Assembly (NCBI GenBank): GCA_035515795.1
Contig: DATJAY010000002.1
Coordinates: 186,001 to 250,000 of the forward strand
Direction: 5' to 3'
DNA from: Candidatus Acidiferrales bacterium
GTDB lineage: Bacteria > Bacteroidota > Ignavibacteria > Kryptoniales > JAKASW01
DNA: 64,000 bases
A program made the position numbers and the translations under genes. Each line of letters begins with the position of its first letter. Position 1 is the first letter of the stretch. Positions 28,788-46,854 of this stretch are shown piece after piece. The notes under the pieces were generated by a model. The model was not told where the DNA came from. It searched no databases and was given only the letters and a program-made list of their open reading frames with translations.

Positions 28788-31700
28788 ATGAAACAATTAC
28801 ACAGGTTGGTAGTTCCTTGGTTGTTTTTAACCGTCTTACTTCCGGCAACGACATTTGCCGGAACAACCGGAAAGATTGCGGGGACGATAACGGATAAAAC
28901 AACCAGCGAGGCTTTACCCGGCGTCAACGTCCTCGTGATGGGAACATCCTTGGGAGCTTCAACAGACTTGAATGGTCAATACACAGTTTTGGAAGTCTTG
29001 CCCGGGACATACAAGTTACAGATTTCTATGGTTGGGTATAAAAAGGTCGTTGTAGAAGACGTCGTCGTCCATATCGATCAAACCGCACATGTGGACGTAG
29101 CTTTGGAGCCTGAGGCGGTTCAGGCCGGGGAAGTTATTGTCACAGCGCAACAGCGGCTCATAAAGCCTGACGTGGCTACAAGCGTTTCTTCTTATACAGG
29201 GAACCAGGCCCAGCAACTGCCGGCGGTAAATATCGTCAGTATTCTCGGTCTGCAGGCGGGCGTCCAGGGCGGATGGGAAGGACCTCTGGGCGGGGCTTCT
29301 GCGCCGTCATACTACACTCAAAACTATACCACGGGGAGCGTTTCCGTGGGCGGCGGAATAAGCATCCGCGGTGGCGGCGGTGACCAAATTCTTTTCAACG
29401 TGGATGGCGCCACTTTGAGAGACCCGAGGAACAACGAACCCGAGACAAGGATCGCGATGAGCGATGTGAAAGAAGTCTCCGTGGAACGCGGCGGCTTTAA
29501 TGCCGAATATGGGCAGGTACGATCTGGAATCGTAAATGTCGTCACGCGCGAGGGAAGCAAATCCGACTACTCCGGCAGATTTGAGGTACGGCTCGCTCCT
29601 CCACAACCGAAATACTGGCTTGCCCCGGGAGTTTACGATATAAACAATCCGATGTCCGCCGCCTTGCGTCCGTATTTTGACCCGGCCGTCGCTTGGACCG
29701 GGACGACAAACGGAAACTGGGATGCGTATACTCAGCAGGAGTATCCGAGCTTCAGCGGGTGGGATAAAGTTGCGCAGACAATGAATGCGGAGGGCTACAA
29801 TTTGACTCCCGCAGAATGCCAGAGAGCTTTCGAATACGAAATCAGAAAGCAGCAGATCAACAACCAACCTGATTACAATATCGACGCTGGATTTGGCGGC
29901 CCGGTTCCTGTGGTCAGCGACGCACTGGGCGGGCTGAGATTCTTTGCCTCTTATCGCAGCAATAGATCAATGCTTGTGTGGCCGCTATCGAGGCCCGATT
30001 ATAAAGACTATGACGGCACGTTCCAGCTTAATTCAGACATTTCCCCGACGATGAAATTGCAGCTCAACGGCCTATACGGCGAGACGTTCACCGAGAGAAA
30101 CAACTGGGATACCAACCTGGGAGCCTATTTCTATCCTCAGTCGGCCTCCGATGTTGCAGGGATTGTCGGCTCCAATGACGGGAGTTTTAATCCATTTCTT
30201 CTTTATTCTAACTATGCTTTTTGTCTTACCGATATCTGGCATCGTAATCTTTCTGCGAAGTTTACTCACACTTTGAACGCGAACACATATTATGAAGTTT
30301 TGTTGCAGAACTATACCGTGCATTACAACACTCGTCCCGCTGCATTGAGAGATACATCGGCAAAGGTTGAAGTCGTTCCGGGTTTCTACGAGGATTCCAA
30401 CCCGTTTGGATACTGGCCGGATAACAACTTTGCAAATGTTATCATCAACGGCGGTTCGTTTTACGCAATGACGCGCGATCATAGCTTCGTAAGCACGACA
30501 AGTTTGAAGGCAGATCTGACGAGTCAGGTTAATTTTGAGAACTTGGTTAAAGCCGGAATAGAATTCGACTATAACGATCTGCACTTCGATTACGGTATAA
30601 TAAATTCTCAGCAGGGTCAAAATGTTTATTCCTCTCGGACACTCCTGGATGTCTTCCCTTATCGCGGGGCGGCTTATGCTCAAGATAAATTAGAGACGAA
30701 AGAGTTCACGATGAATGCGGGCTTGCGTCTGGATCTAAGCGACGCAAATTATCACTGGTGGGACATCAATCCATTCAGCACCGCCGGTTCAATATTTTTC
30801 CAGCCGCCCGACAGTGCAACGCTTGCCAATGCCAAATTCGGGTCAACTCCGTCGAAGATGCAATTGGATTTGAGTCCTAGGCTCGGGATATCGCATCCGA
30901 TTTCCGAAAATGCAAAGCTGTTTTTCAACTACGGCTGGTTCAGAGAGCTGCCTCAGTACGAGACCATTTTCCGTGTGAGCCGCGACGAGAATGATAAGAT
31001 GGCAGCGTACGGAAACCCCAACCTCATTCTCGCAAAAACTGTCTCGTACGAGTTAGGTGTTGACTTCTCGCTTGGCGAAGAGTATCTGCTTCAAGGAGCA
31101 GCATACTACAACGATGTCAGCGATCAGCAAGATGCCGTACAATATGTAGCAACTTCAGGGGTCAGTTACTTTGCGACCTCCGCCAATAACTATGCAGATA
31201 ATAAGGGCTTCGAGATCACACTTCGCAAGACTACCGGGGACTGGGTGAATGGCTTTGTCAACTACACATATCAGGTGAACACTGCGGGTCATTTCAACGA
31301 AGCCAAGGTTACTAACAATGCTCAACAACAAACCATCTTCGACAACACCACGGAGAACAATTACCAGAATCGGCCGATTCCCGCACCGTTCGCAAGGGCA
31401 AATGTGAATTTCCTTAGTCCGGCTGATTTTGGCCCGGATATAATCGGCAATCATATTTTTGGTGATTGGATGCTGAACATCGTCGTCGATTGGCAGGCCG
31501 GATACTGGACGACATGGAATCCCAATAATCCTAATATCTCGTATAACGTTCAGGCGGTCGATTACTTCAACACTCACCTCAGACTGCAGAAGACCCTCAC
31601 CTTTGGGCGGATGAATTTCCAGTTGTTCATGGATGTGGATAATGTGTTCAATACCCTCAGACTCTGGGATACCGGCGACGAGAATTATTTGTTGTCCCTG

Positions 31701-32099
31701 CATTTGCCGCCGAGTACCGCGTATGCCAACATTCCTGGAAGTGATAGAGTCGGAGACTACAGGAAGCCGGGAGTTAACTGGCAGCCGATGGTGGAGCAGA
31801 ATGTTGATGCGACCTCATCGCCGATAATGGATCCCACTCAATTGAATAATGGGAATTCCATTGCAATGTATTACAACGCCGTCACCGGAAAGTACTGGTG
31901 GTACGGCCCGCACGGCTACGCCGCTTCACAGGAACCCGGGCAGGATGTAAATGGATGGTGGCAGGTTCCTCAGTCGAAAGTCAATCAGGTCGTTTCGGAC
32001 AAAGCGTATATTCAGATGCCGAAAGAGTCGACGTTCTGGTTCCTTGATCCGCGGACTTTCTACTTTGGCCTGACATTTTCGTTCAATTTGTCAGACTAA
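28788..32099 (+). CDS. TonB-dependent receptor with carboxypeptidase-regulatory-like N-domain
   Basis: This outer-membrane import channel of 1103 residues is powered by TonB. After a signal peptide (to about residue 24), a CarboxypepD_reg-like domain (about 28-110) begins KIAGTITDKTTSEALPGVNV. A plug domain follows, with VGGGISIRGGGGDQILFNVD and VSVERGGFNAEYGQVRSG, and then a large barrel ending FYFGLTFSFNLSD with the terminal aromatic pattern. Arrangement is like OAR/CirA-type or SusC-like receptors. The start has AAAGGAG 8 nt upstream. It heads a plus-strand locus with a secreted protein, PorV-like barrel, lipoprotein and glycoside hydrolases, so a glycan-derived oligosaccharide is the likely substrate, though no SusD partner is visible. 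Confidence 0.92.
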   Translation: MKQLHRLVVPWLFLTVLLPATTFAGTTGKIAGTITDKTTSEALPGVNVLVMGTSLGASTDLNGQYTVLEVLPGTYKLQISMVGYKKVVVEDVVVHIDQTAHVDVALEPEAVQAGEVIVTAQQRLIKPDVATSVSSYTGNQAQQLPAVNIVSILGLQAGVQGGWEGPLGGASAPSYYTQNYTTGSVSVGGGISIRGGGGDQILFNVDGATLRDPRNNEPETRIAMSDVKEVSVERGGFNAEYGQVRSGIVNVVTREGSKSDYSGRFEVRLAPPQPKYWLAPGVYDINNPMSAALRPYFDPAVAWTGTTNGNWDAYTQQEYPSFSGWDKVAQTMNAEGYNLTPAECQRAFEYEIRKQQINNQPDYNIDAGFGGPVPVVSDALGGLRFFASYRSNRSMLVWPLSRPDYKDYDGTFQLNSDISPTMKLQLNGLYGETFTERNNWDTNLGAYFYPQSASDVAGIVGSNDGSFNPFLLYSNYAFCLTDIWHRNLSAKFTHTLNANTYYEVLLQNYTVHYNTRPAALRDTSAKVEVVPGFYEDSNPFGYWPDNNFANVIINGGSFYAMTRDHSFVSTTSLKADLTSQVNFENLVKAGIEFDYNDLHFDYGIINSQQGQNVYSSRTLLDVFPYRGAAYAQDKLETKEFTMNAGLRLDLSDANYHWWDINPFSTAGSIFFQPPDSATLANAKFGSTPSKMQLDLSPRLGISHPISENAKLFFNYGWFRELPQYETIFRVSRDENDKMAAYGNPNLILAKTVSYELGVDFSLGEEYLLQGAAYYNDVSDQQDAVQYVATSGVSYFATSANNYADNKGFEITLRKTTGDWVNGFVNYTYQVNTAGHFNEAKVTNNAQQQTIFDNTTENNYQNRPIPAPFARANVNFLSPADFGPDIIGNHIFGDWMLNIVVDWQAGYWTTWNPNNPNISYNVQAVDYFNTHLRLQKTLTFGRMNFQLFMDVDNVFNTLRLWDTGDENYLLSLHLPPSTAYANIPGSDRVGDYRKPGVNWQPMVEQNVDATSSPIMDPTQLNNGNSIAMYYNAVTGKYWWYGPHGYAASQEPGQDVNGWWQVPQSKVNQVVSDKAYIQMPKESTFWFLDPRTFYFGLTFSFNLSD

Positions 32100-32124
32100 C
32101 AAAAAGAAAAGAGGAATTTTTATA

Positions 32125-34779
32125 ATGAAATATCGAGCAATAAGAACCAGCGAAGGTTCCATGAGCGGGAAAAAACCGATTTTCCTTTTTATTGCAGCTT
32201 TCTTGTGTTTAGGTACTTTTGAAGTTTCGTTCGCGCAACAAGTCAAATGGCTCAGCGTAAGCGATCTATTGTCTCCGATAAATAATATCGGGATGAATTA
32301 CGAGGGTGAGTATGGCGCTCTCACGCAGGGCAATTTTGGAAACTCCTTTACGTGGCCTGCTCAATTCGGTTACGGATTCAATGACCAGGACATGTTGAGA
32401 ATGGAAGGAATGTGGATCGGCGTCAAAGATTACAACGACCCCCTTCTGGGTAAGCTTCTGAGTCCCAAGGTGGTTGGATCCGGGCCGCGGGATGGTGCGG
32501 ATCGGACCAATCAGATCTTCCCTGTTCAGTTTAAGCTCATTGGAAAGGAGCCGCATCCTAACGTGACGGTGATTAATGGCGGCAATGTTGCAGATGGGTC
32601 ATTTCAGACCGCGTATGACCAGGTGGACCAGTACGATCCCACCATGGCACCCGACCGTATGATAATAGTGCAATTCAACACCTCAGTCGGGATTACCGTA
32701 ACCAGGAAGGTAATGGTTTTTGGTGACAACACCGATGGTCAATATTTTATCAACGACTGGACTTTCAAGAACACCGGTATTTACGATGCCGCAGGTGATG
32801 TCAATGCCCAGACGCTCGATACTGTTTGGGTCTATTTCATTTACCGTTATGCTTTCGCAGGGGAAGGTAACGGAGCACCGTCCGAACCCATCGGAGGAGT
32901 TCAGGGTACCGGTTCCTGGGCATCATTCCAGTCCACGTGGGGGGAGAGCACTTTGAACCATGATTTCGGTGACTACGGCGTGGGGTCTCAGCTTTTTAAC
33001 GATGCTTCATCTCCTCTTTATCACATGAGGGGGTTCTATTCTTATTACGGTCCAGACAAGAACAGGACCTCACTTAAAGGCAGTATATATGATGAAGACT
33101 GGGGATGCCCGGCACAAAACTGGGATGGGCGGATGTGTTCATGGAAATTTGCAGGGAATGTAACTCTTCATGCCGATAAGGCAGTTGGCGATACGTCCGA
33201 TGATATTTCCCAGCCTGCAACTACCTGGTTTATTTCCTCGGACCTCGATCCCGACATCAAGAATTATATTAATCAATACGATGCGGTAGGAATGGCGGAC
33301 CGTTGGACAGACATTACTGAGGGGCATTCGCCGATACCTCACGATTCGAGCATGATAGCCGTTGTCGGTGGTGCAACACCTCTTCAGGGTAATTACCCCG
33401 TCGGACGAAGGAACAGCGGTGGTGGTACGAGTCAAGAGCAGGGATTTGGTCCCTATGCAAGCCTGGCACCGGGAGACAGCATTCATATAGTTTATGCTCA
33501 AGGAGGGGGCGGTATATCTCGTGAGAAAAATCTTGAGGTTGGCGCGAACTGGTTACAGTATTACAACGGAACGGGGACGCCCGATCTGATCATGCCTGAC
33601 GGATCGTCTGCGCCAAAAACTCTCGATGGTGCGAACGCTTACAAGAGGGCGTGGGTACTCACGGGAAAGGATTCTATTATAAAGATTTATCGGGAAGCAA
33701 TGAACAATTATGCATCGGGTTACAGGGCACCCCAGCCGCCGCAGCCTCCATCGAATTTTATCGTGAGCGGATTGGGTGATCGGATCAATTTGCAGTGGTC
33801 TGAAGAAGCTGAAAAGGATCCGCATTTTAACGGCTACGTTATCTATCGTTCATTAAATACTTCTATGAACCCGCTTGCAAGGTATGACAAGGTCTTTGAG
33901 TGCAGCAAGAACAATCTTCCCAGCGATGTCTCAGGCAACCGTAGCTGGGACGATGATGCAGCCAACGATCCTAACCCGCCGGGAAGAGGATTTGATTACT
34001 ACTATTATTTACAGACGAAGGATGATGGTACACAGAGGGATATCAATGGGAATCCGGTTGGAGTGCTTTACAGCAGCCTTGAGTGGACGATAACAGTTCT
34101 GCCGGCTTCATTGCAGCGCCCGCCGATTCCAGCTGGACCGCTGCCTTTTACATTCTCCACCATGAAATGGATAGCAATGAATAGCCAAGGAACATGGACT
34201 ACGGGAATGAAGTACGGCAGAAATGATTCCCTTGATGTGTCGGACTGGGTGAAATATAACAATGTAGATTATGTTTTTGTTCATGTGAATTCATCGGGTG
34301 TTGGAGATTCATTGACGAGCGCGGACTCTACGAATCCTGCCGCTGCCGATACGATTTGGAGAAAAGTCAACGTGACAGGAAAAACATGGGTAAGTGGAGC
34401 CGGATATAAGGCTTATGACGCTGTACTCGAGAATGGGTTAAATTACTTTACACCGTTTCAAATTTCTGCCGGTTTGGGATTGGATCTCGTCCGTGTTGTT
34501 CCAAATCCATATGACAGCCGCGCACGGTCCTATCAGTACGGCTCCCAGCCTGAAGTGCAAGATAAAATCAGTTTCTTTGGCCTGCCTGCTGTTTGCAAGC
34601 TGAAAATCTTCACGGAGCGTGGAGATTTGATATACACGATTGACCACAAAGGCACCGGTGATGAGAAGTGGTATTGCCGAACTTCAGCGGGTCAAATCGT
34701 TGCCAGCGGGATTTACATACTGGCAGTGGAAGAACCCAATGGGCCAAAGATCTTTCGCAAATTTGTCATTATCAGGTAA
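32125..34779 (+). CDS. Large secreted protein with FN3-like domain and divergent sorting-type C-terminus
   Basis: I do not recognise the main body of this protein. It has 884 residues with a signal peptide (hydrophobic FLFIAAFLCLGTF, cleavage after EVSFA). An aromatic, Gly-rich body follows, containing FGDNTDGQYFINDWTFKNTG. A fibronectin-III-like domain at about 535-625 has PPSNFIVSGLGDRINLQW and GYVIYRS. The last 90 residues start LVRVVPNPYDSRA and end FRKFVIIR, resembling the T9SS sorting fold with VVPNPY in place of YPNPFNP. GAGG lies about 10 nt upstream. It sits directly after the TonB receptor, the position SusD takes in polysaccharide loci, so it may be the glycan-binding partner; that is inference. 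Confidence 0.8.
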   Translation: MKYRAIRTSEGSMSGKKPIFLFIAAFLCLGTFEVSFAQQVKWLSVSDLLSPINNIGMNYEGEYGALTQGNFGNSFTWPAQFGYGFNDQDMLRMEGMWIGVKDYNDPLLGKLLSPKVVGSGPRDGADRTNQIFPVQFKLIGKEPHPNVTVINGGNVADGSFQTAYDQVDQYDPTMAPDRMIIVQFNTSVGITVTRKVMVFGDNTDGQYFINDWTFKNTGIYDAAGDVNAQTLDTVWVYFIYRYAFAGEGNGAPSEPIGGVQGTGSWASFQSTWGESTLNHDFGDYGVGSQLFNDASSPLYHMRGFYSYYGPDKNRTSLKGSIYDEDWGCPAQNWDGRMCSWKFAGNVTLHADKAVGDTSDDISQPATTWFISSDLDPDIKNYINQYDAVGMADRWTDITEGHSPIPHDSSMIAVVGGATPLQGNYPVGRRNSGGGTSQEQGFGPYASLAPGDSIHIVYAQGGGGISREKNLEVGANWLQYYNGTGTPDLIMPDGSSAPKTLDGANAYKRAWVLTGKDSIIKIYREAMNNYASGYRAPQPPQPPSNFIVSGLGDRINLQWSEEAEKDPHFNGYVIYRSLNTSMNPLARYDKVFECSKNNLPSDVSGNRSWDDDAANDPNPPGRGFDYYYYLQTKDDGTQRDINGNPVGVLYSSLEWTITVLPASLQRPPIPAGPLPFTFSTMKWIAMNSQGTWTTGMKYGRNDSLDVSDWVKYNNVDYVFVHVNSSGVGDSLTSADSTNPAAADTIWRKVNVTGKTWVSGAGYKAYDAVLENGLNYFTPFQISAGLGLDLVRVVPNPYDSRARSYQYGSQPEVQDKISFFGLPAVCKLKIFTERGDLIYTIDHKGTGDEKWYCRTSAGQIVASGIYILAVEEPNGPKIFRKFVIIR

Positions 34780-34790
34780 GGAGACATTAG

Positions 34791-35807
34791 ATGAAGAAGA
34801 AGATAAATTTTCTTGCGGCGGCTCTGCTTCTGAGTTCATTCACGGTTCCGGGTTTTGCACAGCAGAAATTAGCGCAGAGCGGATTTCAGTTCTTGAGCGT
34901 GGTCTCGGATGCTCACGGTGCTGCCATGGCTGATGCCATGACGAGTCTTCCATTAGGTTCGAGCTCACTATTTTTCAATCCTGCCGGGATGACAGGCTTG
35001 AACGGCGTCGTGGACTTATCTGGCAGCACGAATAAGTGGATAGCCGGTATCACTCATAATACTTTTAGCCTCGAAGTCAATCCGGCCAACGGCCGGTACG
35101 GGGTTATCGGTTTCAGTTTGCAGTATGTCAATTATGGGGATATTTATGAAACGATTGTGGGTCAAGGTCCTCAGGGCTACGAGGATCTCGGCATTTACCA
35201 TTTGACCGCTTACGCTGCCGGCCTAGGTTATGCGAAACAGTTGACCGAGCAGTTCAGCCTTGGAGGCCAGATAAAGTTGATACATCAAGACCTAGGTCCA
35301 AGCACAATTCCTTTGCCTGGCGGCACCGGTAACGACACAAGCCAGACTGCCTCAAATAAGTTATCGCCCATTGTGTTTGATTTCGGCACGCAATTCAAAA
35401 CCGGTGTTAAGAGCCTCGTGTTCGGAATGTCAGTGAGGAATTTTTCTCAGCAGGTGAAATATGTCGATGAAGGTTTCCAGGCCCCGCTGGCGTTCTCTCT
35501 CGGAATATCGATGAATCTTTTGGACTTGGCAAAATCGCTTCCGTTCAATCAATCGCTTCTCATGAGCCTAGATGCCAGCCATTATACTGATCGCCCTGAG
35601 GAAGTCAACGTCGGGCTAGATTACTGTCTGCTCGACATGTTATCTCTGCGCGCAGGTTACACTTCCGGAAACGCTGTTAACGATGAAGGGAATGGACTTT
35701 CATACGGAGTGGGTTTCTCGAAGTTCGGACTTTCCATCGACTACGCCTACACACCTTTCGGTGATTTCGGAAACATACAGCGATTCACTGTCCGGTTCTC
35801 AAGGTAA
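34791..35807 (+). CDS. PorV/PorQ-family outer-membrane beta-barrel protein
   Basis: This predicted outer-membrane barrel of 338 residues has a signal peptide (to about residue 24, SFTVPGFAQ), then the family N-terminus FLSVVSDAHGAAMADAMTSL and LFFNPAGMTGLNG, repeated amphipathic strands, and the terminal strand QRFTVRFSR. AAGGAG precedes the start, which lies 11 nt after the 884-residue secreted protein. Family members include the T9SS shuttle PorV. Its genomic pairing with a sorting-type cargo is repeated at 9.6-13.0 kb, so a dedicated partner role is plausible. No enzyme activity is expected. Confidence 0.83.
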   Translation: MKKKINFLAAALLLSSFTVPGFAQQKLAQSGFQFLSVVSDAHGAAMADAMTSLPLGSSSLFFNPAGMTGLNGVVDLSGSTNKWIAGITHNTFSLEVNPANGRYGVIGFSLQYVNYGDIYETIVGQGPQGYEDLGIYHLTAYAAGLGYAKQLTEQFSLGGQIKLIHQDLGPSTIPLPGGTGNDTSQTASNKLSPIVFDFGTQFKTGVKSLVFGMSVRNFSQQVKYVDEGFQAPLAFSLGISMNLLDLAKSLPFNQSLLMSLDASHYTDRPEEVNVGLDYCLLDMLSLRAGYTSGNAVNDEGNGLSYGVGFSKFGLSIDYAYTPFGDFGNIQRFTVRFSR

Positions 35808-35822
35808 AAGGAGAAAGAAAAC

Positions 35823-37109
35823 ATGAAATTCCATCGTTATATATTATTTACATTTGCGTTTATTTTTGCCTCCTTAGCATTTGTTTCAGGATGCAAGTAC
35901 AATGTTACAACGCCTACATGGGATAAGCCTTACGCGGCGCTGGGAGCTGCGACGATTGTTTCTATAGATCCGTCAGCGGCTACCGGAGGCGTGAATACAA
36001 TTACAATCCGCGGACACAATTTTGTCATTGCAGCGACAGACACATTTGCCTCCGACACCACAATAGTGTATTTCAGTGTCGGCAGTGTTGGCGGCAAAAA
36101 TTTTTCTCTGTCTCAGGCTGATGTCATTTCGATGGATTCCACGACGATAGTGGTGCGTCGTCCCAATCTTGTGAGTGACTCGATTACCATAGAAGTGGAG
36201 CCGCATAATGGCACCGTGGCGAAGCATGGACCATATCAAATAACAAATGTTACTTCGCAGTACGGCGGTCTTCTGCAAAACGTCCCCTTGGGTGGAATCG
36301 CGGCCGACAATCAGGGTCATGTGTTCGTTACGGAAAACTCGACCACCGGGTCCAGCCCGATGGGCATACATGAGATCACCTCTGCCACCGACAACATAGT
36401 AATAGGAACGGCCAATGGGACGCCATGGGGAGCTTGCGTGGGACCCGACAACAATTTATATGTGATGTCGGCAACCACCAGATGGATTGAGAAAGTGAAT
36501 CCATCGACTGATTCTGTGCAGCAGAAATGGGTGCAGCTGGCGAAACTTGCTAAATTTGGGGACTTCGACCAGGCTGGATATCTTTTTGCCGGATGGAACA
36601 AGACCGATCTCTATGTTATTCCTCCTTATGCCGCCGGAACCCTTAGCGCCCCGGCCGCTGTAGCAGGATATGCGTCCGATACAATACTTGCGGTGAAAGT
36701 CTATAATGGTGATGTCTATGTCGTATCTGCTCCCTCAGGTTCGCCGGGGAATGAAAAGGTCTGGAAGAATCATCTTACATCGGATAGCACGGTGGGTACA
36801 CGAGAGCTCGTGCTTGACATGAGTACGACGGCATTCGCTGCCGATCATATAACCGGCATCGCATTCTCCTCGAGCGGCGACCTGTATATCGCAACTTATT
36901 CGACCGATCCACTTCTCATCGACCCCGGCGCCGGATCAGATGGTACGAAAGTGGACAATATGTACAAAGGAATTCTCCCGACAGTTTGCAACGGGATTGC
37001 GTGGAGCAGCACATCCAATTATTTGTACATGATTGCCGGTGACGGTTCTAGCTCAAACAAATATATGGTATATCAAGTTGATATGGGGCAAGATGGCGGA
37101 GCACGATGA
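35823..37109 (+). CDS. IPT/TIG-domain lipoprotein with NHL-like propeller
   Basis: This predicted lipoprotein of 428 residues has a hydrophobic signal ending in the lipobox FVSGC near residue 24. An IPT/TIG Ig-like domain follows (about 38-125; IVSIDPSAATGGVNTITIRG). Then come several beta-propeller-like repeats with motifs such as GGIAADNQGHVFVTEN, GACVGPDNNLYVMS and GIAFSSSGDLYIATY, as in NHL or SMP-30-like folds. No enzyme residues are recognised. AAAGGAG lies just before the start, 15 nt after the PorV-like gene. IPT domains also occur in surface glycan-binding proteins (SGBPs) of Bacteroidetes loci, so a surface glycan-binding or scaffolding function is likely but not proven. Confidence 0.8.
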   Translation: MKFHRYILFTFAFIFASLAFVSGCKYNVTTPTWDKPYAALGAATIVSIDPSAATGGVNTITIRGHNFVIAATDTFASDTTIVYFSVGSVGGKNFSLSQADVISMDSTTIVVRRPNLVSDSITIEVEPHNGTVAKHGPYQITNVTSQYGGLLQNVPLGGIAADNQGHVFVTENSTTGSSPMGIHEITSATDNIVIGTANGTPWGACVGPDNNLYVMSATTRWIEKVNPSTDSVQQKWVQLAKLAKFGDFDQAGYLFAGWNKTDLYVIPPYAAGTLSAPAAVAGYASDTILAVKVYNGDVYVVSAPSGSPGNEKVWKNHLTSDSTVGTRELVLDMSTTAFAADHITGIAFSSSGDLYIATYSTDPLLIDPGAGSDGTKVDNMYKGILPTVCNGIAWSSTSNYLYMIAGDGSSSNKYMVYQVDMGQDGGAR

Positions 37110-37157
37110 TTTTTTGAAAGGATGATTCTTTCCTAACCAGTATAGAGATGTGATGCT

Positions 37158-39113
37158 ATGAATACTATCAAGGCAGTTCTATCAGCCGTGTTGCTTCTTG
37201 GCGGGGTCAGTCAGGTTTTCGGTCAGAGTGGGACAAATTGTTTCCTGCAGGATTATTACCCAAAAACTGCAGCTATACCACTCTATCGAGATACGACAAA
37301 GACTAATGTCTCCCCTAATGTTATCGTTACCATTGACGGTACCGACACGCTCGGCGAGATATCGAACTATGTTTTCGGAAATGCAGTAGCGACATGGGTG
37401 TCACAGGACGTAAACAATCCGACGCTGCTGGGTTATCTCCAATTGCTGTCGCCTACTCTCATCCGTTATCCGGGAGGAAGCTGGTCGGACGTTTTTTTCT
37501 GGAGCGGCAATCCTGGCGATCTGCCCGATTCTATTTACGATGCGAGCAATTATTATGGCACTGGTGCGGTTAAGCAAAGGCTCTCACCGGAGTTAGGCCC
37601 CAGTCTCCTTCCGACTCCTGAAAGCTACTATAATATGCGTGACCAGCTTTACACGCAGGGACTCATAACCATCAACTATGCTTACGCCCGCTACGGGCGA
37701 AGCAACGATCCCGTAGCGCAGGCCGCACATTATGCGGCTGATTGGGTGCGCTATGATGACGGTCGCACTGAATTTTGGGAGATCGGCAACGAAGATAACC
37801 GACCCTGGGAAGCCGGTTTCCTGATCGACACTTCGAAAAACAAAGACCATCAGCCCGCAGTAATTAGTGGTGACCTCTACGGGAAACATTTCAAAATATT
37901 TGTCGACTCGATGAAAGCGGCGGCGAACGGAATTGGAGCAACAATATATGTTGGAGGTCAAATAAACCAATACCATGATGCAAGCGACTGGATCGTCGCC
38001 GACCGGAATTGGAACCAACAGTTCTTCAACGAAGTCGGCGATACCGCAGATTTTTACGTGATACACGATTATTACGGCAACAATGCTACAAGCATAAAGG
38101 GTCAGGTAGATAACGGTGTGAGTGAAATTGACGCCGATATTGCCTCGGTTCGGCAGGACATTTCCAATTTCGGCGCTGCTCCGATGCCGATCGCATTGAC
38201 TGAATGGAACTGTTCCTCTGCAAACAACAGCGGGTCCGCTACGGCAGAAACATCAATTGCAAACGGGATGCAAGCTGTGGCGCTCTTTTGTGAGATGATA
38301 AAGAACAACATGGGGATGTCTGCAAGGTGGCTCATTGCAAACTGGAACACTGACGGAATGTTTTATAATGGGAACGATGGCAGCATTCCGCAATGGAATC
38401 CGCGGCCTGATTTCTATTACATATATTATCTGAACCAAGTCATCGGAGACCATGTCGTAAGCGCGACTGTGCCGGGAGGCAAAGGTATCTATGCTTATGC
38501 CACGAGGTTCTCTTCGGGACACACTGGTGTCGTTGTAGTGAATGACGGTTCCACCAGTCAAACTGTGATGCTGAATCCAAAAAGCATCGGTGTAGGAGAC
38601 AGATTTTATGTCTATACCCTCACAGGAGTCGACAATAGCACATGGCCGCAGTCTGTGGTTGTGAATGGTCATGGCCCCAGCGCGACAAGATGGGGACCCC
38701 TTGACAGCCTTCAGCAGATTCCGGCTCTGGCATATCCTGTCGATGACACGATAGAGTTTGCTTCACCAGCGAATTCGGTGGAATATGTATTGGTCGACAG
38801 TGGCAGCCGCAATATTTCGTCGGTCCACGGCAAGGATTCGCAGACTCCCTACAAATTTGAGCTGGGTCAAAATTATCCGAACCCTTTCAATCCGACGACC
38901 GACATTAGCTACCAGCTTATGACGGTTAGTCACGTGACTTTAAAGATTTATGACGTGCTTGGAAGAGAGATAGCGACGTTGGTCGATGGAGAACAGCAGC
39001 CTGGTGAACATATTGTCCGCTTTGACGGCTCGAACTTATCAAGCGGCGTCTATTTTTACCGGATGAAGGCTGGCGATTTTGTCGAAACAAAGAAACTTAT
39101 GTTGATAAGATAG
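37158..39113 (+). CDS. Clan GH-A-like glycoside hydrolase with T9SS type A sorting domain
   Basis: This exported protein of 651 residues has a signal peptide ending QVFGQS and a (beta/alpha)8-type catalytic domain. Candidate catalytic residues are the acid/base Glu in FWEIGNEDNRPW (about 209-214) and the nucleophile Glu in PIALTEWNCSS (about 347). IRYPGGSWSD near the N-terminus resembles GH51-like arabinofuranosidases (R-x-P-G-G). A beta-sandwich region follows. The last 85 residues are a sorting domain with NYPNPFNPTTDISY, VLGREIATLV and SGVYFYRMKAGDF. The enzyme would act at the surface. The exact family (GH51, GH39, GH44 or an unclassified one) needs a profile search. It lies in the same run as the TonB receptor. 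Confidence 0.8.
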   Translation: MNTIKAVLSAVLLLGGVSQVFGQSGTNCFLQDYYPKTAAIPLYRDTTKTNVSPNVIVTIDGTDTLGEISNYVFGNAVATWVSQDVNNPTLLGYLQLLSPTLIRYPGGSWSDVFFWSGNPGDLPDSIYDASNYYGTGAVKQRLSPELGPSLLPTPESYYNMRDQLYTQGLITINYAYARYGRSNDPVAQAAHYAADWVRYDDGRTEFWEIGNEDNRPWEAGFLIDTSKNKDHQPAVISGDLYGKHFKIFVDSMKAAANGIGATIYVGGQINQYHDASDWIVADRNWNQQFFNEVGDTADFYVIHDYYGNNATSIKGQVDNGVSEIDADIASVRQDISNFGAAPMPIALTEWNCSSANNSGSATAETSIANGMQAVALFCEMIKNNMGMSARWLIANWNTDGMFYNGNDGSIPQWNPRPDFYYIYYLNQVIGDHVVSATVPGGKGIYAYATRFSSGHTGVVVVNDGSTSQTVMLNPKSIGVGDRFYVYTLTGVDNSTWPQSVVVNGHGPSATRWGPLDSLQQIPALAYPVDDTIEFASPANSVEYVLVDSGSRNISSVHGKDSQTPYKFELGQNYPNPFNPTTDISYQLMTVSHVTLKIYDVLGREIATLVDGEQQPGEHIVRFDGSNLSSGVYFYRMKAGDFVETKKLMLIR

Positions 39114-39285
39114 GACGAGCATAACTTTGTTTAAAGGAGGTGGTAGGCGAACGAAGAAGTGAGTCGGAAAAAGTCTTTGTAAGATAGTGCAAGGTATTCA
39201 ACGTGAAAAGAGTCGGTTACTCATCATTCACGATGGATGCCGTGCAATGAGAAAATCTGAACTAAAAACATGAAGGAGAAGAAAA

Positions 39286-40422
39286 ATGAACGGCCTGAAA
39301 ATATTTTCCTGCATAGCGTTAATTTTCCTTATAAGCTCAGTGACCATGGCCCAAACCGGCACGCGTGTCATTGAGTCTTTCGATTATCAACTGGGATCCG
39401 TTCTGGATACTTTGGGCACTGCCGGCAACGGTTGGGCCGGCAGCTGGTACATCTCGGATTCGTCGACGAATCACAACAGTAAAATGCTCGCGGTGGCCGA
39501 TACCGGAATAGCAGATTATGAAAGTGCGCTGGCCTATCCTATCAACCGTGCTGGTCACGCGGTGTGCGGGTCAATTCCCAGCGGCTGGACCTATATACGA
39601 TATGCCCGGTATTTGAGCCATCCAGTGACCAACGAGGCGAAGGCTACCTACTGGTTGAGTTTCGTCAATGACCTGGAATACGGCTCGCCGAATTGCTGGA
39701 ACGTCTGCTCATTCTGGGACAGCACGTATGAAGAATTCGGAGCTCCACATGGCTGGGGTAACGACACTGCGATGATAAATAATGTTTCCGGCACAGGAGT
39801 CCCTGGACTTTTGTGTCAGGGCACAGGACCACACTGGTGGGTATTGAGACTGGACTTGGACGGAGATACCTCTGCCGTACTTCATATGTGGCATGATCTG
39901 GATCCCAGTGGAGGAAAACCCGACACAGCGTCTGCGGACGCGCGGGGAACCTACAGCTTTTGGAAACATGGAACCGTGTTATACGATTCCGTACTCCACC
40001 ACGGCTTCAACGCCGTTCACCTCGAGTTCAGCAATTCGAATGTCGGGACGCAGGCGATGTTTGCCGAAGTTCGCCTCGACACGTCTTGGGCTGGCGTCTC
40101 CGACAATGACGGAGGAAAGCTAACGACAGGTGTGAATCTTCCGCCCAATACGCACCCGACTCAATTCGTCTTGTCTCAAAACTATCCGAACCCGTTCAAT
40201 CCGACAACTCGGATAGAGTACACCGTTCCACAGAATAGTCTCGTTACTCTGAAAGTATACAACATCCTCGGACAGGAAGTAGCGACATTGTTCTCCGGCT
40301 TGAAGGCACCTGGTACGTACTCTGCAATATTTGATGGCAGCAGATTCGCCAGCGGCGTTTACTCCTATAGGTTACAGGCTGGAAGCAATCAGATTACTAA
40401 GAAATTGGTCCTCTTGAAGTAA
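39286..40422 (+). CDS. Secreted LamG/concanavalin-like protein with T9SS type A sorting domain
   Basis: I do not recognise a specific family. This protein of 378 residues has a signal peptide (IFLISSVTMAQ), a beta-rich body with ESFDYQLGSVLDTLG and RYARYLSHPVTNEAKATYW, a pattern seen in concanavalin/LamG-like jelly-roll proteins, and no obvious catalytic motif. The C-terminal 85 residues are a clear sorting domain, with QNYPNPFNPTTRIEY, NILGQEVATLF and SGVYSYRLQAG. AAGGAG precedes the ATG. It lies between the GH-A enzyme and the fucosidase, so a carbohydrate-binding role is likely. A strong inverted repeat begins 8 nt after its stop and may end the transcript. Confidence 0.75.
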   Translation: MNGLKIFSCIALIFLISSVTMAQTGTRVIESFDYQLGSVLDTLGTAGNGWAGSWYISDSSTNHNSKMLAVADTGIADYESALAYPINRAGHAVCGSIPSGWTYIRYARYLSHPVTNEAKATYWLSFVNDLEYGSPNCWNVCSFWDSTYEEFGAPHGWGNDTAMINNVSGTGVPGLLCQGTGPHWWVLRLDLDGDTSAVLHMWHDLDPSGGKPDTASADARGTYSFWKHGTVLYDSVLHHGFNAVHLEFSNSNVGTQAMFAEVRLDTSWAGVSDNDGGKLTTGVNLPPNTHPTQFVLSQNYPNPFNPTTRIEYTVPQNSLVTLKVYNILGQEVATLFSGLKAPGTYSAIFDGSRFASGVYSYRLQAGSNQITKKLVLLK

Positions 40423-40429
40423 ATCGTCT

Positions 40430-40492
40430 AAAATTTTTTGGTTGGACATATCCTGCAGCCGCCGTGGCCGCAGGAGTGTCCCAAAAAATTTT
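40430..40492. terminator. Long imperfect inverted repeat, likely bidirectional terminator
   Basis: The left arm reads AAAATTTTTTGG, then GGACA, then TCCTGC. The right arm reads GCAGGA, TGTCC, then CCAAAAAATTTT. Stems of 12, about 4-5 and 6 bp are separated by small bulges, with a 13-nt GC-rich loop. A-rich and T-rich ends on both sides fit an intrinsic terminator on either strand. It starts 8 nt after the stop of the LamG-like gene. Confidence 0.75.
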
Positions 40493-40752
40493 GTGATTTC
40501 ATTGTTAGCGGTAACACTTTTGCGGAATTTGAATGACGTTGATGCTCGTCGCGAAAATGTAAAATGCGACAGGGCCGGGAAGGTCTGGATTTTGGGCCTG
40601 CACTCAACCTGAACAATTGTACGATTCCAGGTTCCGGGGCAGCTCGCTCGCATCAGAGATCTGCTTTTCTGTTAGCCGGAGCGAACGTCAAACAAGCAAA
40701 ATGTCTCTAATGAAATAGTGCAATCCGGCTACTTCTTCTGATAAAACGCACA

Positions 40753-40782
40753 ACGCCTGCAGAGCGTGAAGGCTGCAGGCGT
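40753..40782. repeat. Perfect 10-bp inverted repeat before the fucosidase
   Basis: ACGCCTGCAG at 40753-40762 pairs perfectly with CTGCAGGCGT at 40773-40782 across a 10-nt loop. The following bases ATTCTTTA are only weakly T-rich, so it may be a terminator, a leader hairpin or a regulator site for the fucosidase that starts 60 bases on. Confidence 0.6.
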
Positions 40783-40841
40783 ATTCTTTATCGGTATTCG
40801 CTCGTCTTATGTAATCAACGGAAATGAAAAGGACCTTGTCT

Positions 40842-42275
40842 ATGAATCGTGCTCAATTCACGAAATTATTTTTTTTGACGATGATAATTCTGTTCCAATC
40901 GTTGGAATCAATGCATGCTCAAACAACTGAAGATCTCCAGCGTGCATTCACCGAGCTTCGCTTCGGTATGTTTATACATTTCGGCATTATGACATTTACC
41001 GGTGCGAAATGGGCTGCACCGGACCAAGATGTGACGAAGTTCAACCCGGCAGATCTCGACTGTAACCAATGGGCAGAGGCGGCAGTCGCCGCAAAAATGA
41101 AATTCGGAATTCTTACGACGAAACACCATGATGGTTTTTGTTTGTGGAACAGTAAATACACGTCAAACAGTGTTGCAAATAGTCCATGGAAAAATGGCGG
41201 CGGCGATGTTGTCCGAGAGTTCGTGAATGCCTTCAGGGCGCATGGGCTGTTCCCTTGCCTTTATTATTCCATCTGGGATAATACGAGGGGAGTAGGGAAT
41301 GGACCAATCACTGCGCGGGATATGGAGTTTATAAAAGGGCAGATTGCCGAGCTTTTGACTAATTATGGGCCCATCAAGATGCTCTTCATCGACGGATGGT
41401 CGTGGAAGATGGGACATGTAGCGGTGCCTTATGACGAAATACGCGCGCTGGTGAAAAGACTTCAACCGGGCTGTTTGCTTCTGGACAACACACACCTTCA
41501 ATGTCTGTACGAAAACGATATGGTACATTATGAAGCCGGACAGACGCTTCCGAACGACAACGTTCTTCCCGCATTGCAGAGTGCCTTGATAAACAAAAAC
41601 AGCGGCGACGACTGGTTCTGGGACGCGAGAGTTCCGACTGCGCCCTTGATGGACGTGAACGAAATTGTCGATGAATTCAAATTTCTTGAACCCAGATGGT
41701 GCACATTTGTATTGAATTGTCCTCCCAACGAAAACGGGAAATTAGATTCGAGCATCGTGGTGCGTCTGGAGGAAGTTGGAAAGGCATGGAATCCGGATAC
41801 AACCCGACCTGCATTACCTAAACAAGAACCATTCATGGAATATCCCGTGATCCCCGTGTCGGCCGCTGCAACAAGCGGCAACGCGAGTTATGCTATCGAT
41901 GGAATAAATGACAGATACTATTACTCGGTTTGGAAGTCCGATTCTTCCTTGCCCCAATCGATCACCATCGACCTTGGAAAGGAATTCAATGACATCGCAA
42001 TGCTGGAATATGTGCCACAATACAAGACTGTGGCAACTCCGATCACATCGGGTAGCATAGAGTCTTACGAAATCTACAAAAGCAACGACAATCTCAGTTT
42101 CACAAAGATTGCCAACGGCAAATGGGCCGGTGACGTAAGGATGAAAGTTGTGACATTCCAGCCGACCGGTGCGCGCTATATACGTCTTATTGCCTTAACA
42201 TCTGTTGATGGTTATGCCGCCATCACCGAAATTGCAATCGGACGAGATGGCAGCATAAACGAAATAAAACATTAA
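40842..42275 (+). CDS. GH29 alpha-L-fucosidase with F5/8-type C-terminal domain
   Basis: This enzyme hydrolyses terminal alpha-L-fucose from glycans. The secreted 477-residue protein has a signal peptide (to about residue 27), the GH29 N-terminal FGMFIHFGIMTF, the conserved ILTTKHHDGFCLW, and the nucleophile Asp in MLFIDGWSWKMG near residue 183. The region from about 340 is a discoidin-like F5/8 type C domain (NASYAIDGINDRYYYSVW, ITIDLGKEF) that can bind carbohydrate. ATG 40824 is possible, but ATG 40842 has AAAAGGA at 8 nt and is preferred. No sorting domain is seen, so it may stay periplasmic or be exported another way. It lies 18 bases from the GH31 gene. Confidence 0.93.
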   Translation: MNRAQFTKLFFLTMIILFQSLESMHAQTTEDLQRAFTELRFGMFIHFGIMTFTGAKWAAPDQDVTKFNPADLDCNQWAEAAVAAKMKFGILTTKHHDGFCLWNSKYTSNSVANSPWKNGGGDVVREFVNAFRAHGLFPCLYYSIWDNTRGVGNGPITARDMEFIKGQIAELLTNYGPIKMLFIDGWSWKMGHVAVPYDEIRALVKRLQPGCLLLDNTHLQCLYENDMVHYEAGQTLPNDNVLPALQSALINKNSGDDWFWDARVPTAPLMDVNEIVDEFKFLEPRWCTFVLNCPPNENGKLDSSIVVRLEEVGKAWNPDTTRPALPKQEPFMEYPVIPVSAAATSGNASYAIDGINDRYYYSVWKSDSSLPQSITIDLGKEFNDIAMLEYVPQYKTVATPITSGSIESYEIYKSNDNLSFTKIANGKWAGDVRMKVVTFQPTGARYIRLIALTSVDGYAAITEIAIGRDGSINEIKH

Positions 42276-42293
42276 ACAGGAATCGGATAAGAA

Positions 42294-44903
42294 ATGAAAA
42301 AAATAATTTTATTGATGTGTGTGTCATTAGATCTGCTTTTCTCGGAGGCGAACTCGCAGGTTGGCTCATTCCAGCGGCAGTCGGACGGGGTATTGTTCAG
42401 ATTGCAGACAGGTATTCTGAAAGTGTACGTATGCCAAGATAATATTTTCCGCATCACGTATTGTGCAGACACTGCACTTCCTCCAAAAGTCATTCTCACG
42501 GTGAACAAAGTCTGGGGTGCGCCTTCATTCACAATGGATGAGGATGATACTTCCGTGATTATTACTACGAGCAAAATCAAGGCGGCCGTATCCAAGGCTT
42601 CCTCATTGCTGAGTTTCTATTCAATTGACGGCAGCCTAATACTGTCGGAGGACAGCAGACGGATCTCTCCAGACACGGTTTACGGCGTGAATACGGACAG
42701 CTGCTCCTCAACTTTCAATTCTCCTACTGACGAAGCGATCTATGGCCTTGGGCAACATCAGCAAGGAATCATGGACTACAAGGGGCACACACAATTGCTA
42801 GACCAGGCGAACAAAGAGATAGGAATGCCGATCATAGTTTCCAGTAAAGGATACGGGATTTTGTGGGACAATTACTCGAAGACGCTCTTTGATGGCACAG
42901 TTGCATCGGCAACCAAATATCGATTCAGTTCGCTGTGTGGTGAAATGGTGGACTATTATTTCATTTACGGACCCGAAATCGATTCGGTAATCTCAGCGTA
43001 TAGAACGGCAACTGGGACCGCACCGCTATTTCCAAAATGGGCTTACGGTCTTTTCCAGTCTAAGAATAGATATTCGTCAAGCTCCGACCTTATCGCCGTT
43101 AAAAACGAGTACAGAAACAACGGGATCCCGGTGGATTGCATTGTCCAGGATTGGTATTACTGGAATCCATATTCATGGGGATCTAACGTAATGAATCCTT
43201 CCAATTATCCTGATCCCGCGGCGACGGTAGATTCACTGCACAATGCCAATATACATACGATGATTTCTATATGGGCAACATTTACGGAAGGCAATTCAAA
43301 TTATACTCAGTTTTCGGGGATCAACGCTTTATATCCGAGCGATGGTACACGCCATTACTATGATCCTCATAACAGTACGGCCAGAACTATCTATTGGCAG
43401 CAGGTCAGGGATCAATTGTTTGAAAAGTACGGCTGGGATGCCTGGTGGGCGGATGCCGACGAACCGGATACATATCCGGACACTTACGACAGGGACTCAG
43501 CCAACACTGCATTAGGCAAAGGTGTGCTGTACCATAATACATACCCGCTCATGCATGCCACAAGCGTTTATGACGGTTGGAGACAGGATATTAAAGATAA
43601 ACGACTGTTTACTCTGAGCAGATGTGCATTTCCTGGAAGTCAGCGAAACGCTGCAGCTTCATGGTCGGGCGACATAAGCTGTACGTGGGGTGATTTTAAA
43701 CTACAGCTATCTGCGGGCTTAAATTTTTGTCTCAGCGGAATTCCATATTGGACAACTGATATCGGTGGATACGCAACCAATTGGGTGCAAACTAACTGGG
43801 GAACACCCGACAAACGTGAATTATTTACCCGCTGGTTTGAGTACGGAACCTTTTGTCCTATATACCGGATTCACGGGGTGGACGATAAGTCCCTCTTGTC
43901 AAGTTTTTGGGATGCCACAACAAGAAGGATCCTTCTGAATTATGACATGCTGCGGTACAGGTTGATGCCTTATATTTATTCACTTGCCTGGATGGTCACG
44001 AGCGAGAATTATACCGTCATGCGTCATCTGATAATGGATTACAGAGCAGATCCCAATGTCGCTTCCATCGACGATCAATTTATGTTCGGTCCATTCATGA
44101 TGATCAATCCCGTCTGTACGCAAGGCGTCACATCTAGAACTGTATATCTGCCGACGGGCAATTGGTATGATTTCTGGACGGGAGATATTGTAAGCGGGGG
44201 AGGAAGCATAGTTGCAGCTGCTCCGTTAGATACTATGCCGATTTTTGTAAAATCGGGCTCAATAATTCCTATGGGTCCCAATATTCAGTATGCAACTCAA
44301 TCCATTGACACTCTTGAAATAAGAGTTTATAGAGGAGCCGATGCAAAATTCATTTTATATGAAGATGAGGGTGATAATTACAACTATGAGCAAGGACAGT
44401 ACTCTCTCATCCCATTTTCATATAGTGAAGCCACCGGACAACTTGTCATCGGTACGAGACAGGGATCATATAGTGGCATGCCAGAGGATAGAATATTTGA
44501 TGTGGTATTTGTGAGCAGCAATCATGGTACTGGCATCGGTTATACATCCATTATCGATACGGTGGTGCACTATGATGGTACACAGACGATAACCGCCGTC
44601 AGCGATAGACAAAACGGCGTCCCCGTTGGTCTTGTTCTTGAACAAAACTATCCTAATCCCTTCAATCCAATGACGACAATCAAGTATCGATTACCGGTCA
44701 GCGGCCGAGTCACGTTGAAGGTTTACGATGTCCTCGGGAGGGAAGTAGAAACTTTGGTGGATGAACAAGAGAGTGCCGGGAATCATTCGGTTTTGTTTGA
44801 TGGTGGTAAGCTGACGAGCGGGACGTATTTTTATGAAATAAAGGCTGTTGGCAGCGACGGACAAAGACTTGCATCAGTAAAAAAGATGATGGTGTTGAAG
44901 TAG
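42294..44903 (+). CDS. GH31-family glycosidase (alpha-xylosidase/alpha-glucosidase type) with T9SS sorting domain
   Basis: This exported retaining alpha-glycosidase of 869 residues has a signal peptide (LDLLFSEANS), an N-terminal beta-domain with YGLGQHQQGIMDYKG, and the (beta/alpha)8 catalytic domain. The nucleophile Asp lies in the W-x-D motif of DAWWADADEPD near residue 383-392. The acid/base Asp is in SWSGDISCTWGDF. A C-terminal beta-sandwich (DTLEIRVYRGADAKFILYED) follows, then a sorting domain with QNYPNPFNPMTTIKY and VLGREVETLV. The WADADEP form resembles GH31 alpha-xylosidases from polysaccharide loci. With the adjacent fucosidase it could remove fucose and xylose side chains of xyloglucan-like polymers. 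The actual sugar is not proven. Confidence 0.9.
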   Translation: MKKIILLMCVSLDLLFSEANSQVGSFQRQSDGVLFRLQTGILKVYVCQDNIFRITYCADTALPPKVILTVNKVWGAPSFTMDEDDTSVIITTSKIKAAVSKASSLLSFYSIDGSLILSEDSRRISPDTVYGVNTDSCSSTFNSPTDEAIYGLGQHQQGIMDYKGHTQLLDQANKEIGMPIIVSSKGYGILWDNYSKTLFDGTVASATKYRFSSLCGEMVDYYFIYGPEIDSVISAYRTATGTAPLFPKWAYGLFQSKNRYSSSSDLIAVKNEYRNNGIPVDCIVQDWYYWNPYSWGSNVMNPSNYPDPAATVDSLHNANIHTMISIWATFTEGNSNYTQFSGINALYPSDGTRHYYDPHNSTARTIYWQQVRDQLFEKYGWDAWWADADEPDTYPDTYDRDSANTALGKGVLYHNTYPLMHATSVYDGWRQDIKDKRLFTLSRCAFPGSQRNAAASWSGDISCTWGDFKLQLSAGLNFCLSGIPYWTTDIGGYATNWVQTNWGTPDKRELFTRWFEYGTFCPIYRIHGVDDKSLLSSFWDATTRRILLNYDMLRYRLMPYIYSLAWMVTSENYTVMRHLIMDYRADPNVASIDDQFMFGPFMMINPVCTQGVTSRTVYLPTGNWYDFWTGDIVSGGGSIVAAAPLDTMPIFVKSGSIIPMGPNIQYATQSIDTLEIRVYRGADAKFILYEDEGDNYNYEQGQYSLIPFSYSEATGQLVIGTRQGSYSGMPEDRIFDVVFVSSNHGTGIGYTSIIDTVVHYDGTQTITAVSDRQNGVPVGLVLEQNYPNPFNPMTTIKYRLPVSGRVTLKVYDVLGREVETLVDEQESAGNHSVLFDGGKLTSGTYFYEIKAVGSDGQRLASVKKMMVLK

Positions 44904-44943: not shown

Positions 44944-46854
44944 ATGAAGGACCGAGAAAAAGAAGAAGCGAAGAATCCAAAAGGTAACCGGCGCAGTCTT
45001 ACGTCTCGATCGCGGAAGAGAATGTTCTGGGTTGTCACTGTTTCCTTGCCGTTCATGGTGTTGATCGTTTTAGAGATTTCGCTGAGAATTCTCAATTACG
45101 ACGGCAATTTAGATTTGTTCATTCCGGCCCAAGCGGGTTACGAAGATTATCTCCAGTGTAATCCCAATGTCGCCCGCCGCTATTTTACCGGACAAACCGC
45201 GCTGCCTGCTCCGCCCAGAGGGATATTTCTGAGGGATAAGCCGAAGAACGGGTGTCGGATTTTTGTACTGGGCGAATCGTCGGCTGCAGGATTTCCGTAT
45301 GAGACAAATGCTTCCTTCCCGAATATCCTTGCTAGGTTGCTCTCGGACACTTTTCCTGGAAAGAAGGTTGAAGTTATCAACGTCGCGATGTCTGCGATTA
45401 ACAGCTATGCAATGCTGGACATGATGGACGAAATTCTGCGAGAGTCCCCTGACGCACTTCTTATTTACGCCGGTCACAACGAATATTATGGCGCCCTCGG
45501 GGTGGGTTCGGTTCAATCTCTTGGTAATTCAAGATGGCTGATTAGAACATATCTCAAGCTTGAGAGGTTCAAGATATTCCTTCTCTTGCGAGACTTCCTG
45601 GGCTGGCTAAGATTCGAATTAAACAAGATGATTTACGGAGGAAATGACAGCGAGCCATCATCGACGCTGATGGAAAGCATAGTGGCACAACAAACTATTC
45701 CCTTTGGGAGTCCGCTTTACGAGGCAGGGAAAATGCAGTTCGAAGAGAACATGAATGACATTCTCCAAAAGGCGGCTGAGAAGAAGGTGCCCGTTGTCTT
45801 GAGCGAGCTGGTCAGTAATCTCCGCGATCAACCCCCGTTTATCTCTGTGCGCGACAAGGAAGGAAAGACAGCGCAGGACTATTTCGACCTTGCCCGTCAG
45901 GAAGAAGCCGATGGAGATTATGCAAAGGCTCGTCAGAACTACTTCAAGGCAAAAGACTATGATGCCTTGCGGTTCCGCGCCCCGGAAGAATTTAACGATG
46001 CATTGCGTTCATTGGCAAAACAATACTCCTGTCCTATCGTTCCTACGCTGGCATATTTTGAAAACGCCTCCCCTAATGGCGTTATTGGGAACTCGTTAAT
46101 CCTGGAACATCTTCATCCCAACATTAATGGGTACTTTTTGATTGCGAAGGCTTTCTACGAAACGATGAAGGCAAACAAGATGATTAATTCATACTGGCCT
46201 CCGGACAGCGTAGGTCTGGAACGAGGAAAAGGAGTGACTCAATTGGACAGCGTTTATGGTGCCATGGTCATTCAACATTTAAAATCGGGCTGGCCCTTTC
46301 AACCTAAATCCGTTCCTAATCGTTTTATGGAAAATTTTCGACCCGCAAATCACATTCAAGAGATCGCGTTTGCCGTGATGCAAACGGGTTTGAGTCTGGA
46401 AGTTGGTCATATGGAATTGGGCGATTACTATGAGAATCATGGTGAATTAGAGAGGGCATTTGACGAGTACGAAGCTCTGATGACATCGATTCCACAGGTG
46501 ATGGATTTTTACAAGAAGGCCGCGGGTATTCTGCTCATGGAAAAGAAATATGACCGGGCGGAGGAACTGTTGAAGGTATCTCTGGGATATAAGGAAACCG
46601 TCTTCGCTTACAAGTGGCTGGGACAGATTGACCTGATGAATAAAAATTATGGGGAAGCGATCTCATATCTGACGAGAGCTGATTCTCTGGACAGACAAGA
46701 TGTTCAGGTGGTATTCAATTTGAGCCGGGCTTACTATTTAGACGGCCGATTGGGTGAAGGCGACAAGTATTTCATAAAATTGCAGAGTCTATCTCCAAAA
46801 CCCGAGGACATTGCTTATCTCAACAATTTGCGTGCATCGGTCCGCGCCAAGTGA
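44944..46854 (+). CDS. Membrane-anchored SGNH/GDSL hydrolase with C-terminal TPR repeats
   Basis: This protein of 636 residues has a very basic N-terminal tail and one membrane helix (about 28-50, VVTVSLPFMVLIVLEISL), so the rest lies outside the inner membrane. The SGNH domain shows block I with the nucleophile Ser in FVLGESSAAGFPY (about 106-118), the Asn of block III in YAGHNEYYG (near 177), and the His of block V in LEHLHPNINGY (near 390). An insertion with FSYF-like helical segments (DYAKARQNYFKAKDYDA) separates them. The C-terminal 150 residues are TPR-like. Such fusions are known in the FCB group and may deacylate or acylate surface glycans; substrate unknown. It follows the GH31 gene by 40 bases. 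Confidence 0.85.
   Translation: MKDREKEEAKNPKGNRRSLTSRSRKRMFWVVTVSLPFMVLIVLEISLRILNYDGNLDLFIPAQAGYEDYLQCNPNVARRYFTGQTALPAPPRGIFLRDKPKNGCRIFVLGESSAAGFPYETNASFPNILARLLSDTFPGKKVEVINVAMSAINSYAMLDMMDEILRESPDALLIYAGHNEYYGALGVGSVQSLGNSRWLIRTYLKLERFKIFLLLRDFLGWLRFELNKMIYGGNDSEPSSTLMESIVAQQTIPFGSPLYEAGKMQFEENMNDILQKAAEKKVPVVLSELVSNLRDQPPFISVRDKEGKTAQDYFDLARQEEADGDYAKARQNYFKAKDYDALRFRAPEEFNDALRSLAKQYSCPIVPTLAYFENASPNGVIGNSLILEHLHPNINGYFLIAKAFYETMKANKMINSYWPPDSVGLERGKGVTQLDSVYGAMVIQHLKSGWPFQPKSVPNRFMENFRPANHIQEIAFAVMQTGLSLEVGHMELGDYYENHGELERAFDEYEALMTSIPQVMDFYKKAAGILLMEKKYDRAEELLKVSLGYKETVFAYKWLGQIDLMNKNYGEAISYLTRADSLDRQDVQVVFNLSRAYYLDGRLGEGDKYFIKLQSLSPKPEDIAYLNNLRASVRAK

Follow-up and report, generated by a model that had tools for sequence, protein, structure and literature searches.

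How bacteria with few or no SusC/SusD pairs import glycans has become a question because, in a published survey, susCD genes occurred only 'scarcely' in the carbohydrate gene clusters of Ignavibacteriales and were absent from those of Ca. Kapabacteria (PMC10576277). The locus described here lies at positions 28788–44903 of the window, the whole stretch of 64,000 nucleotides that was analysed, in an Ignavibacteria genome of 4.08 Mb in 39 contigs. A first-pass annotation had described it as a TonB-receptor glycan locus without SusD, in which an 884-aa secreted protein (32125..34779), here labelled X, follows the receptor. The cassette around X is best seen as TonB-dependent uptake with a surface partner in a new form, joined to type IX secretion (T9SS). 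The reading that we on balance find probable is that the T9SS exports X, that a dedicated PorV barrel serves as the docking site of its CTD, and that X catches substrate for the receptor. While the T9SS signal on X and its pairing with the receptor are well supported, we infer the retention by the CTD, the docking on PorV, the capture of a ligand and the nature of the substrate from better known systems.

Gene content of the locus

All ORFs of the cluster lie on the plus strand at the coordinates given previously, and ORF and domain calls support the order first read from the DNA. The TonB receptor (TBDR; 28788..32099), with CarbopepD_reg_2, Plug and TonB barrel domains, is followed by X, by an outer-membrane barrel of the PorV/PorQ family (34791..35807), and by a surface lipoprotein (35823..37109) with an IPT/TIG Ig domain and a beta-propeller, in which Pfam-type searches gave TIG and NHL matches. 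The intergenic gaps are short, at 25 bases between TBDR and X, 11 between X and PorV, 15 between PorV and the IPT gene and 48 between the latter and the first enzyme gene, and a purine-rich, Shine-Dalgarno-like sequence precedes the TBDR, X, PorV and IPT genes, in agreement with the 25-base gap and strong Shine-Dalgarno sequence reported earlier for X directly 3' of the receptor. The barrel exceeds the curated cut-off of NF033709 (165 bits against 90) and scores under the equivalog cut-offs of both PorV and PorQ.

Downstream lie a GH-A-like enzyme with a T9SS type A tail (37158..39113; Por_Secre_tail), for which Pfam, NCBIfam-type profile and further searches gave a weak glycoside hydrolase fold match (Glyco_hydro_cc, E 0.012) and no family name, and a 378-aa secreted protein (39286..40422), which had been labelled 'LamG-like' and in which the type A tail (Por_Secre_tail) is the sole domain match. 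These are followed by a GH29 alpha-L-fucosidase with an F5/8 C domain (40824..42275; PF01120, E 3e-36, and PF00754) and a GH31 enzyme with a T9SS tail (42294..44903; PF01055), nearest to alpha-xylosidases, whose best solved relatives include BoGH31A. Just beyond the cluster, at 44944–46854, is the gene of a single protein that combines SGNH/GDSL lipase and TPR domains, and such a protein is likewise found near other cassettes (L036, L048, L051 and L103). Pfam searches of 28788–44903 found no SusD, as the first reading of the locus had it.

The receptor and its relatives

The comparison with SusCD loci presupposes that the receptor is a SusC. Against the SusC model TIGR04056, however, the receptor scores 79.5 bits, under the cut-off of 368, while a control receptor on contig C38 of the same genome scores 477.8 bits and is followed by a SusD-like_2 protein. 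The C38 receptor is the only true SusC found in the genome, and the one SusD recovered by a PF07980 search adjoins it; no SusD elsewhere was seen to pair with the window receptor. In a tree built from 52 receptors, one clade (SH-aLRT 96) unites the receptors that precede X, a larger clade (support 98) comprises receptors followed by X, by long X or directly by PorV, and a third (100) contains Xanthomonas/Caulobacter-type receptors whose downstream neighbours are other T9SS-tailed proteins. The score under the SusC cut-off and the separate clade led us to reject the idea of a SusC locus from which SusD was lost; because the receptor is not a SusC and belongs to a clade of its own, the locus is a parallel system and not a SusCD locus in which SusD was replaced. 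The suggestion that X replaces SusD was thus half right, in that X stands where SusD follows SusC and lacks the SusD fold, but does so beside a receptor of another lineage.

A second arrangement without SusD was also seen, in which eight other receptors, on contigs C6, C5, C10, C23, C25 and C28, are each followed by a protein of ~500–680 aa with a T9SS type A tail; two of the eight were tested and are of the Xanthomonas/Caulobacter type.

Occurrence of the cassette in other genomes

More than 100 other X copies have the same neighbourhood, which is therefore not due to chance. When one genome per species was scanned, 297 relatives were obtained, and 78 loci were kept, from Ignavibacteria, KSB1, Marinimicrobia, Calditrichota, WOR-3, Delongbacteria and unnamed bacteria. 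Where the flanks are long enough for a count, 91/94 copies of X have a TBDR immediately upstream and 50/62 are followed by PorV; for a further 40 loci, drawn from class-wide matches, the corresponding counts are 39/39 and 37/38. The conserved receptor–X neighbourhood that the first-pass annotation proposed to count is thus present in both sets, although the cassette copies are related, and neither the pairings nor the co-variation described below are independent events. Some tandem TBDR–X copies lack a PorV gene of their own, and an additional ORF (~190–390 aa) separates X from PorV in Marinimicrobia, WOR-3 and others (five loci may serve as examples: L063, L071, L086, L089 and L108). Literature searches returned nothing on the cassette itself.

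Within the host genome, a TBDR with X or long X is found again on contigs C15, C19, C23, C5, C36 and C4, and a TBDR–PorV variant on C35. The C23 locus (L032), a TBDR–X–PorV cassette without an IPT gene, lies amid what by eye appear to be genes of sugar-acid catabolism, namely an aldolase, kinases and a LacI-type regulator. Across the class, X is present at E <= 1e-80 in ~51 of 197 genomes (counted among the matches listed), and SusD exceeds the PF07980 cut-off in 44 of the 197, mostly in one or two copies, a figure from PF07980 only that may undercount SusD.

Fold and domains of X

X has no Pfam match above cut-off and belongs to no Pfam or NCBIfam family; PHROGs gave no match, and a sequence search of the PDB nothing beyond weak FN3 and PorZ-CTD matches. 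The AF2 model, built on an alignment of 75 sequences (pLDDT 79.4), predicts a beta-rich N-domain (~40–530) closing in two long helices, an FN3 domain (~540–650), a low-confidence linker and the CTD (~785–884). A SusD fold was sought with the Pfam SusD family, in the AF2 model and among the Foldseek matches listed, and none was found in X; hhalign against the genome's own SusD gave 0.3%. As the IPT lipoprotein, modelled on 46 sequences, has no SusD fold either (AF2 model and Foldseek), the check that had been proposed for the two proteins finds neither to be SusD-like, and X, to judge from its model, is not SusD-like.

The sole clear structural match of X found by Foldseek is that of its CTD to the CTD of PorZ (5m11; 35% identity across 100 columns). 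Weaker matches were to CTD chains in T9SS complexes. The best matches of the N-domain are GH94 and GH116 enzymes with a beta-sandwich domain, which could be taken to mean that X is itself a carbohydrate-active enzyme and not a binding protein. These matches are, however, weak (TM ~0.2), and the catalytic (alpha/alpha)6 barrel of both families is missing from the AF2 model, in which only the two long helices and the FN3 domain come next; we regard an enzymatic X as very improbable. A lipid anchor is also unlikely for X, because a lipobox-like motif occurs in only 5/134 copies.

In long X, the body of the protein was at first considered unrelated to that of X, as an initial hhalign comparison showed the CTD alone to be common; this was rejected, as fuller alignments added the stretch before FN3 and the FN3 domain itself (99.3%).

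The type IX secretion signal and the PorV-family barrel

The first-pass annotation had overlooked the T9SS C-terminal signal of X. By both sequence and fold X ends in a C-terminal beta-sandwich CTD of the PorZ kind, as expected of T9SS cargo, and the match to the C-terminus of the PorZ model is shared by 24/35 family members. The host encodes SprA, PorU and a PorV, and thus a T9SS translocon, and SprA was found in 16/16 other X-bearing genomes checked, from several phyla. The CTD of X (34480..34776) belongs to a special subtype, for which profile A7 gives seven matches of >=96 bits in the whole genome, and these are exactly X and the long-X cassette proteins. A PorV paralogue follows 6/6 of those that could be tested (the seventh lies at a contig edge), although the seven copies are related by duplication and the six pairings are not independent events. 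The next A7 match, at 53 bits, is a few kb before the TBDR–PorV pair on C35, and the remainder score <= ~35 bits. The classical type A tail is found on enzymes downstream in the window and on dozens of other proteins of the genome. At an orphan X on contig C3 (L031:10425-12890), an in-frame TAA is followed in the same frame by a classical type A T9SS tail, not a PorZ-like CTD, and neither receptor nor PorV was found in the surrounding stretch.

Considering what the neighbouring barrel may do, PorQ is known to anchor PorZ, and PorV both holds PorU and secreted cargo and acts as a cargo shuttle (PMC5562754). X might accordingly be ordinary T9SS cargo with PorV as a mere dedicated shuttle, and the receptor might import breakdown products without contacting X, a reading with which the many T9SS-tailed enzymes in the vicinity of cassettes agree. 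Yet the genome encodes dozens of further T9SS cargos without a PorV neighbour, and X is tied to one receptor clade and has an N-domain that co-varies with the receptor; we think this explanation distinctly improbable. If X does instead dock on its neighbour, a role would also be given to many of the PorV paralogues of such genomes, of which the host has 18 family matches.

Three further barrel neighbourhoods were observed in this genome. On the minus strand of the window (9602–13023), two PorV/PorQ-family proteins in tandem (113 and 81 bits) come after a BNR-repeat protein whose T9SS tail is weak, making this a CTD-protein and barrel neighbourhood without a receptor. On contig C35 (L183, ~64–70 kb), the genome has a second PorU-like protein, which is 1626 aa long, scores 250 bits, short of the PorU cut-off, and has its own PorV-family protein beside it; at the end of contig C7 (L180) a PorV–IPT pair has no CTD-subtype match beside it, the upstream partner being lost at the contig end.

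Co-variation of the parts and the role of the lipoprotein

Distance matrices from 56 complete cassettes were compared by partial correlation with 200 bootstraps. The receptor co-varies with the X N-domain (0.64) but shows no such relation to FN3 plus CTD (~0), whereas PorV co-varies with FN3 plus CTD (0.40) and not with the N-domain (-0.21); both contrasts were upheld in 200/200 bootstraps. This suggests that the N-domain goes with the receptor and FN3 plus CTD with PorV, and is support and not proof, because the cassettes compared are related by descent.

The lipoprotein was modelled by AF2 with a pLDDT of 89.7 as an Ig (IPT) domain joined to a beta-propeller, and its lipobox Cys24 is invariant in the 46 sequences. 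Its Foldseek matches include 3hrp from B. theta and 4hw6 from B. ovatus, the latter described as an 'auxiliary nutrient binding protein', a resemblance that speaks for the earlier proposal that it may be a second binder. The main rival to our reading makes this protein the lid of the receptor and leaves X as an accessory surface protein, for example a scaffold. BtuG, a seven-bladed propeller lipoprotein that is the lid of BtuB, provides the precedent (PMC10404256); the IPT protein of the window is a lipoprotein with a propeller and co-varies, if weakly, with the receptor (0.26). A lid of the BtuBG type would be expected always to accompany its receptor, but the lipoprotein was found within five genes in only 22/36 cassettes of the class sample, X and PorV being retained, and no lipoprotein gene was found at long-X loci; the co-variation of X with the receptor is also the stronger. 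A lid function for the lipoprotein thus has a minor, though real, chance of being correct.

In the capture reading that we favour, the core would be a four-gene outer-membrane nutrient-uptake cassette of TonB receptor, X, PorV-type barrel and propeller lipoprotein. X would be made with a signal peptide, leave through the T9SS channel SprA by means of its CTD, and be kept on the surface, without a lipid anchor, through binding of the same CTD to the PorV-family barrel of the adjacent gene, much as PorZ sits on PorQ and PorU on PorV. The CTD of PorZ is uncleaved (PMC8545088). The beta-rich N-domain would catch the ligand for the receptor and might form a cap over the barrel in the manner of SusD or BtuG, and the IPT-propeller lipoprotein would be a second surface binder. 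Of the earlier proposal that X is an alternative capture protein, the conserved pairing, the SusD-like position and the lack of a SusD fold speak in favour; its setting in a SusCD locus fell away, and capture itself is conjectural.

Cargo and significance

As the GH31 enzyme is nearest to alpha-xylosidases, including BoGH31A, and GH29 is a fucosidase family, the probable cargo in the window is a glycan with fucosyl and alpha-xylosyl groups, for example fragments of xyloglucan, an assignment from gene content that is reasonable but unproved. GH31 is also found just past the cassette in four related loci, and in one of these (L042) a 51% identical relative of the GH-A-like enzyme adjoins the cassette. 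Among 66 genes sampled downstream of cassettes, 28 encode a T9SS tail, and glycoside hydrolase families account for at least 12 matches. Some cassettes have no glycan enzyme nearby, and the cargo may therefore not always be a glycan.

The X cassette offers a concrete, testable candidate for glycan uptake in several phyla, centred on a protein that is missing from Pfam and NCBIfam. If the proposal is right, it links type IX secretion to TonB-dependent uptake, two systems that are usually kept separate. More tentatively, and with somewhat less confidence than we have in the capture reading for this locus, the cassette could represent a widespread two-barrel uptake machine, in which a TonB receptor works with a T9SS-exported, non-lipoprotein capture or lid subunit, kept on a dedicated barrel of the PorV family by a CTD that is not cleaved, and which might be the main route of glycan uptake where SusCD pairs are few or absent.

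Comparison with known systems

The SusC/SusD (RagA/RagB) systems share with the X cassette a TonB receptor followed by a surface partner, together with further surface lipoproteins and glycan enzymes. They differ in that the receptor of the X cassette falls below the curated SusC cut-off, and in that X is beta-rich, is no lipoprotein and has a T9SS CTD, with a PorV barrel belonging to the set. BtuB/BtuG of vitamin B12 uptake likewise joins a TonB receptor to a surface partner other than SusD, and many X cassettes include a propeller lipoprotein; BtuG, however, is the sole lid and a lipoprotein, and neither a T9SS protein nor a PorV barrel takes part. The Bacteroides lipoproteins 3hrp and 4hw6 combine Ig and propeller domains as does the lipoprotein of the window, but only their structures are known, with nutrient binding as a putative role, whereas the window lipoprotein sits in an X cassette.

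On the secretion side, PorZ–PorQ and PorU–PorV of the T9SS attachment complex also consist of a CTD protein and a barrel of the PorV/PorQ family, and PorZ has the CTD nearest to that of X, although X, which goes with a TonB receptor, has neither propellers nor a sortase domain. Type B CTD proteins occupy PorP-like barrels, and the sprB and sprF genes are neighbours (PMC9143113); SprB–SprF is a barrel-anchored, secreted CTD protein encoded beside its barrel, as proposed for X, albeit with another CTD type, another barrel family and no receptor.
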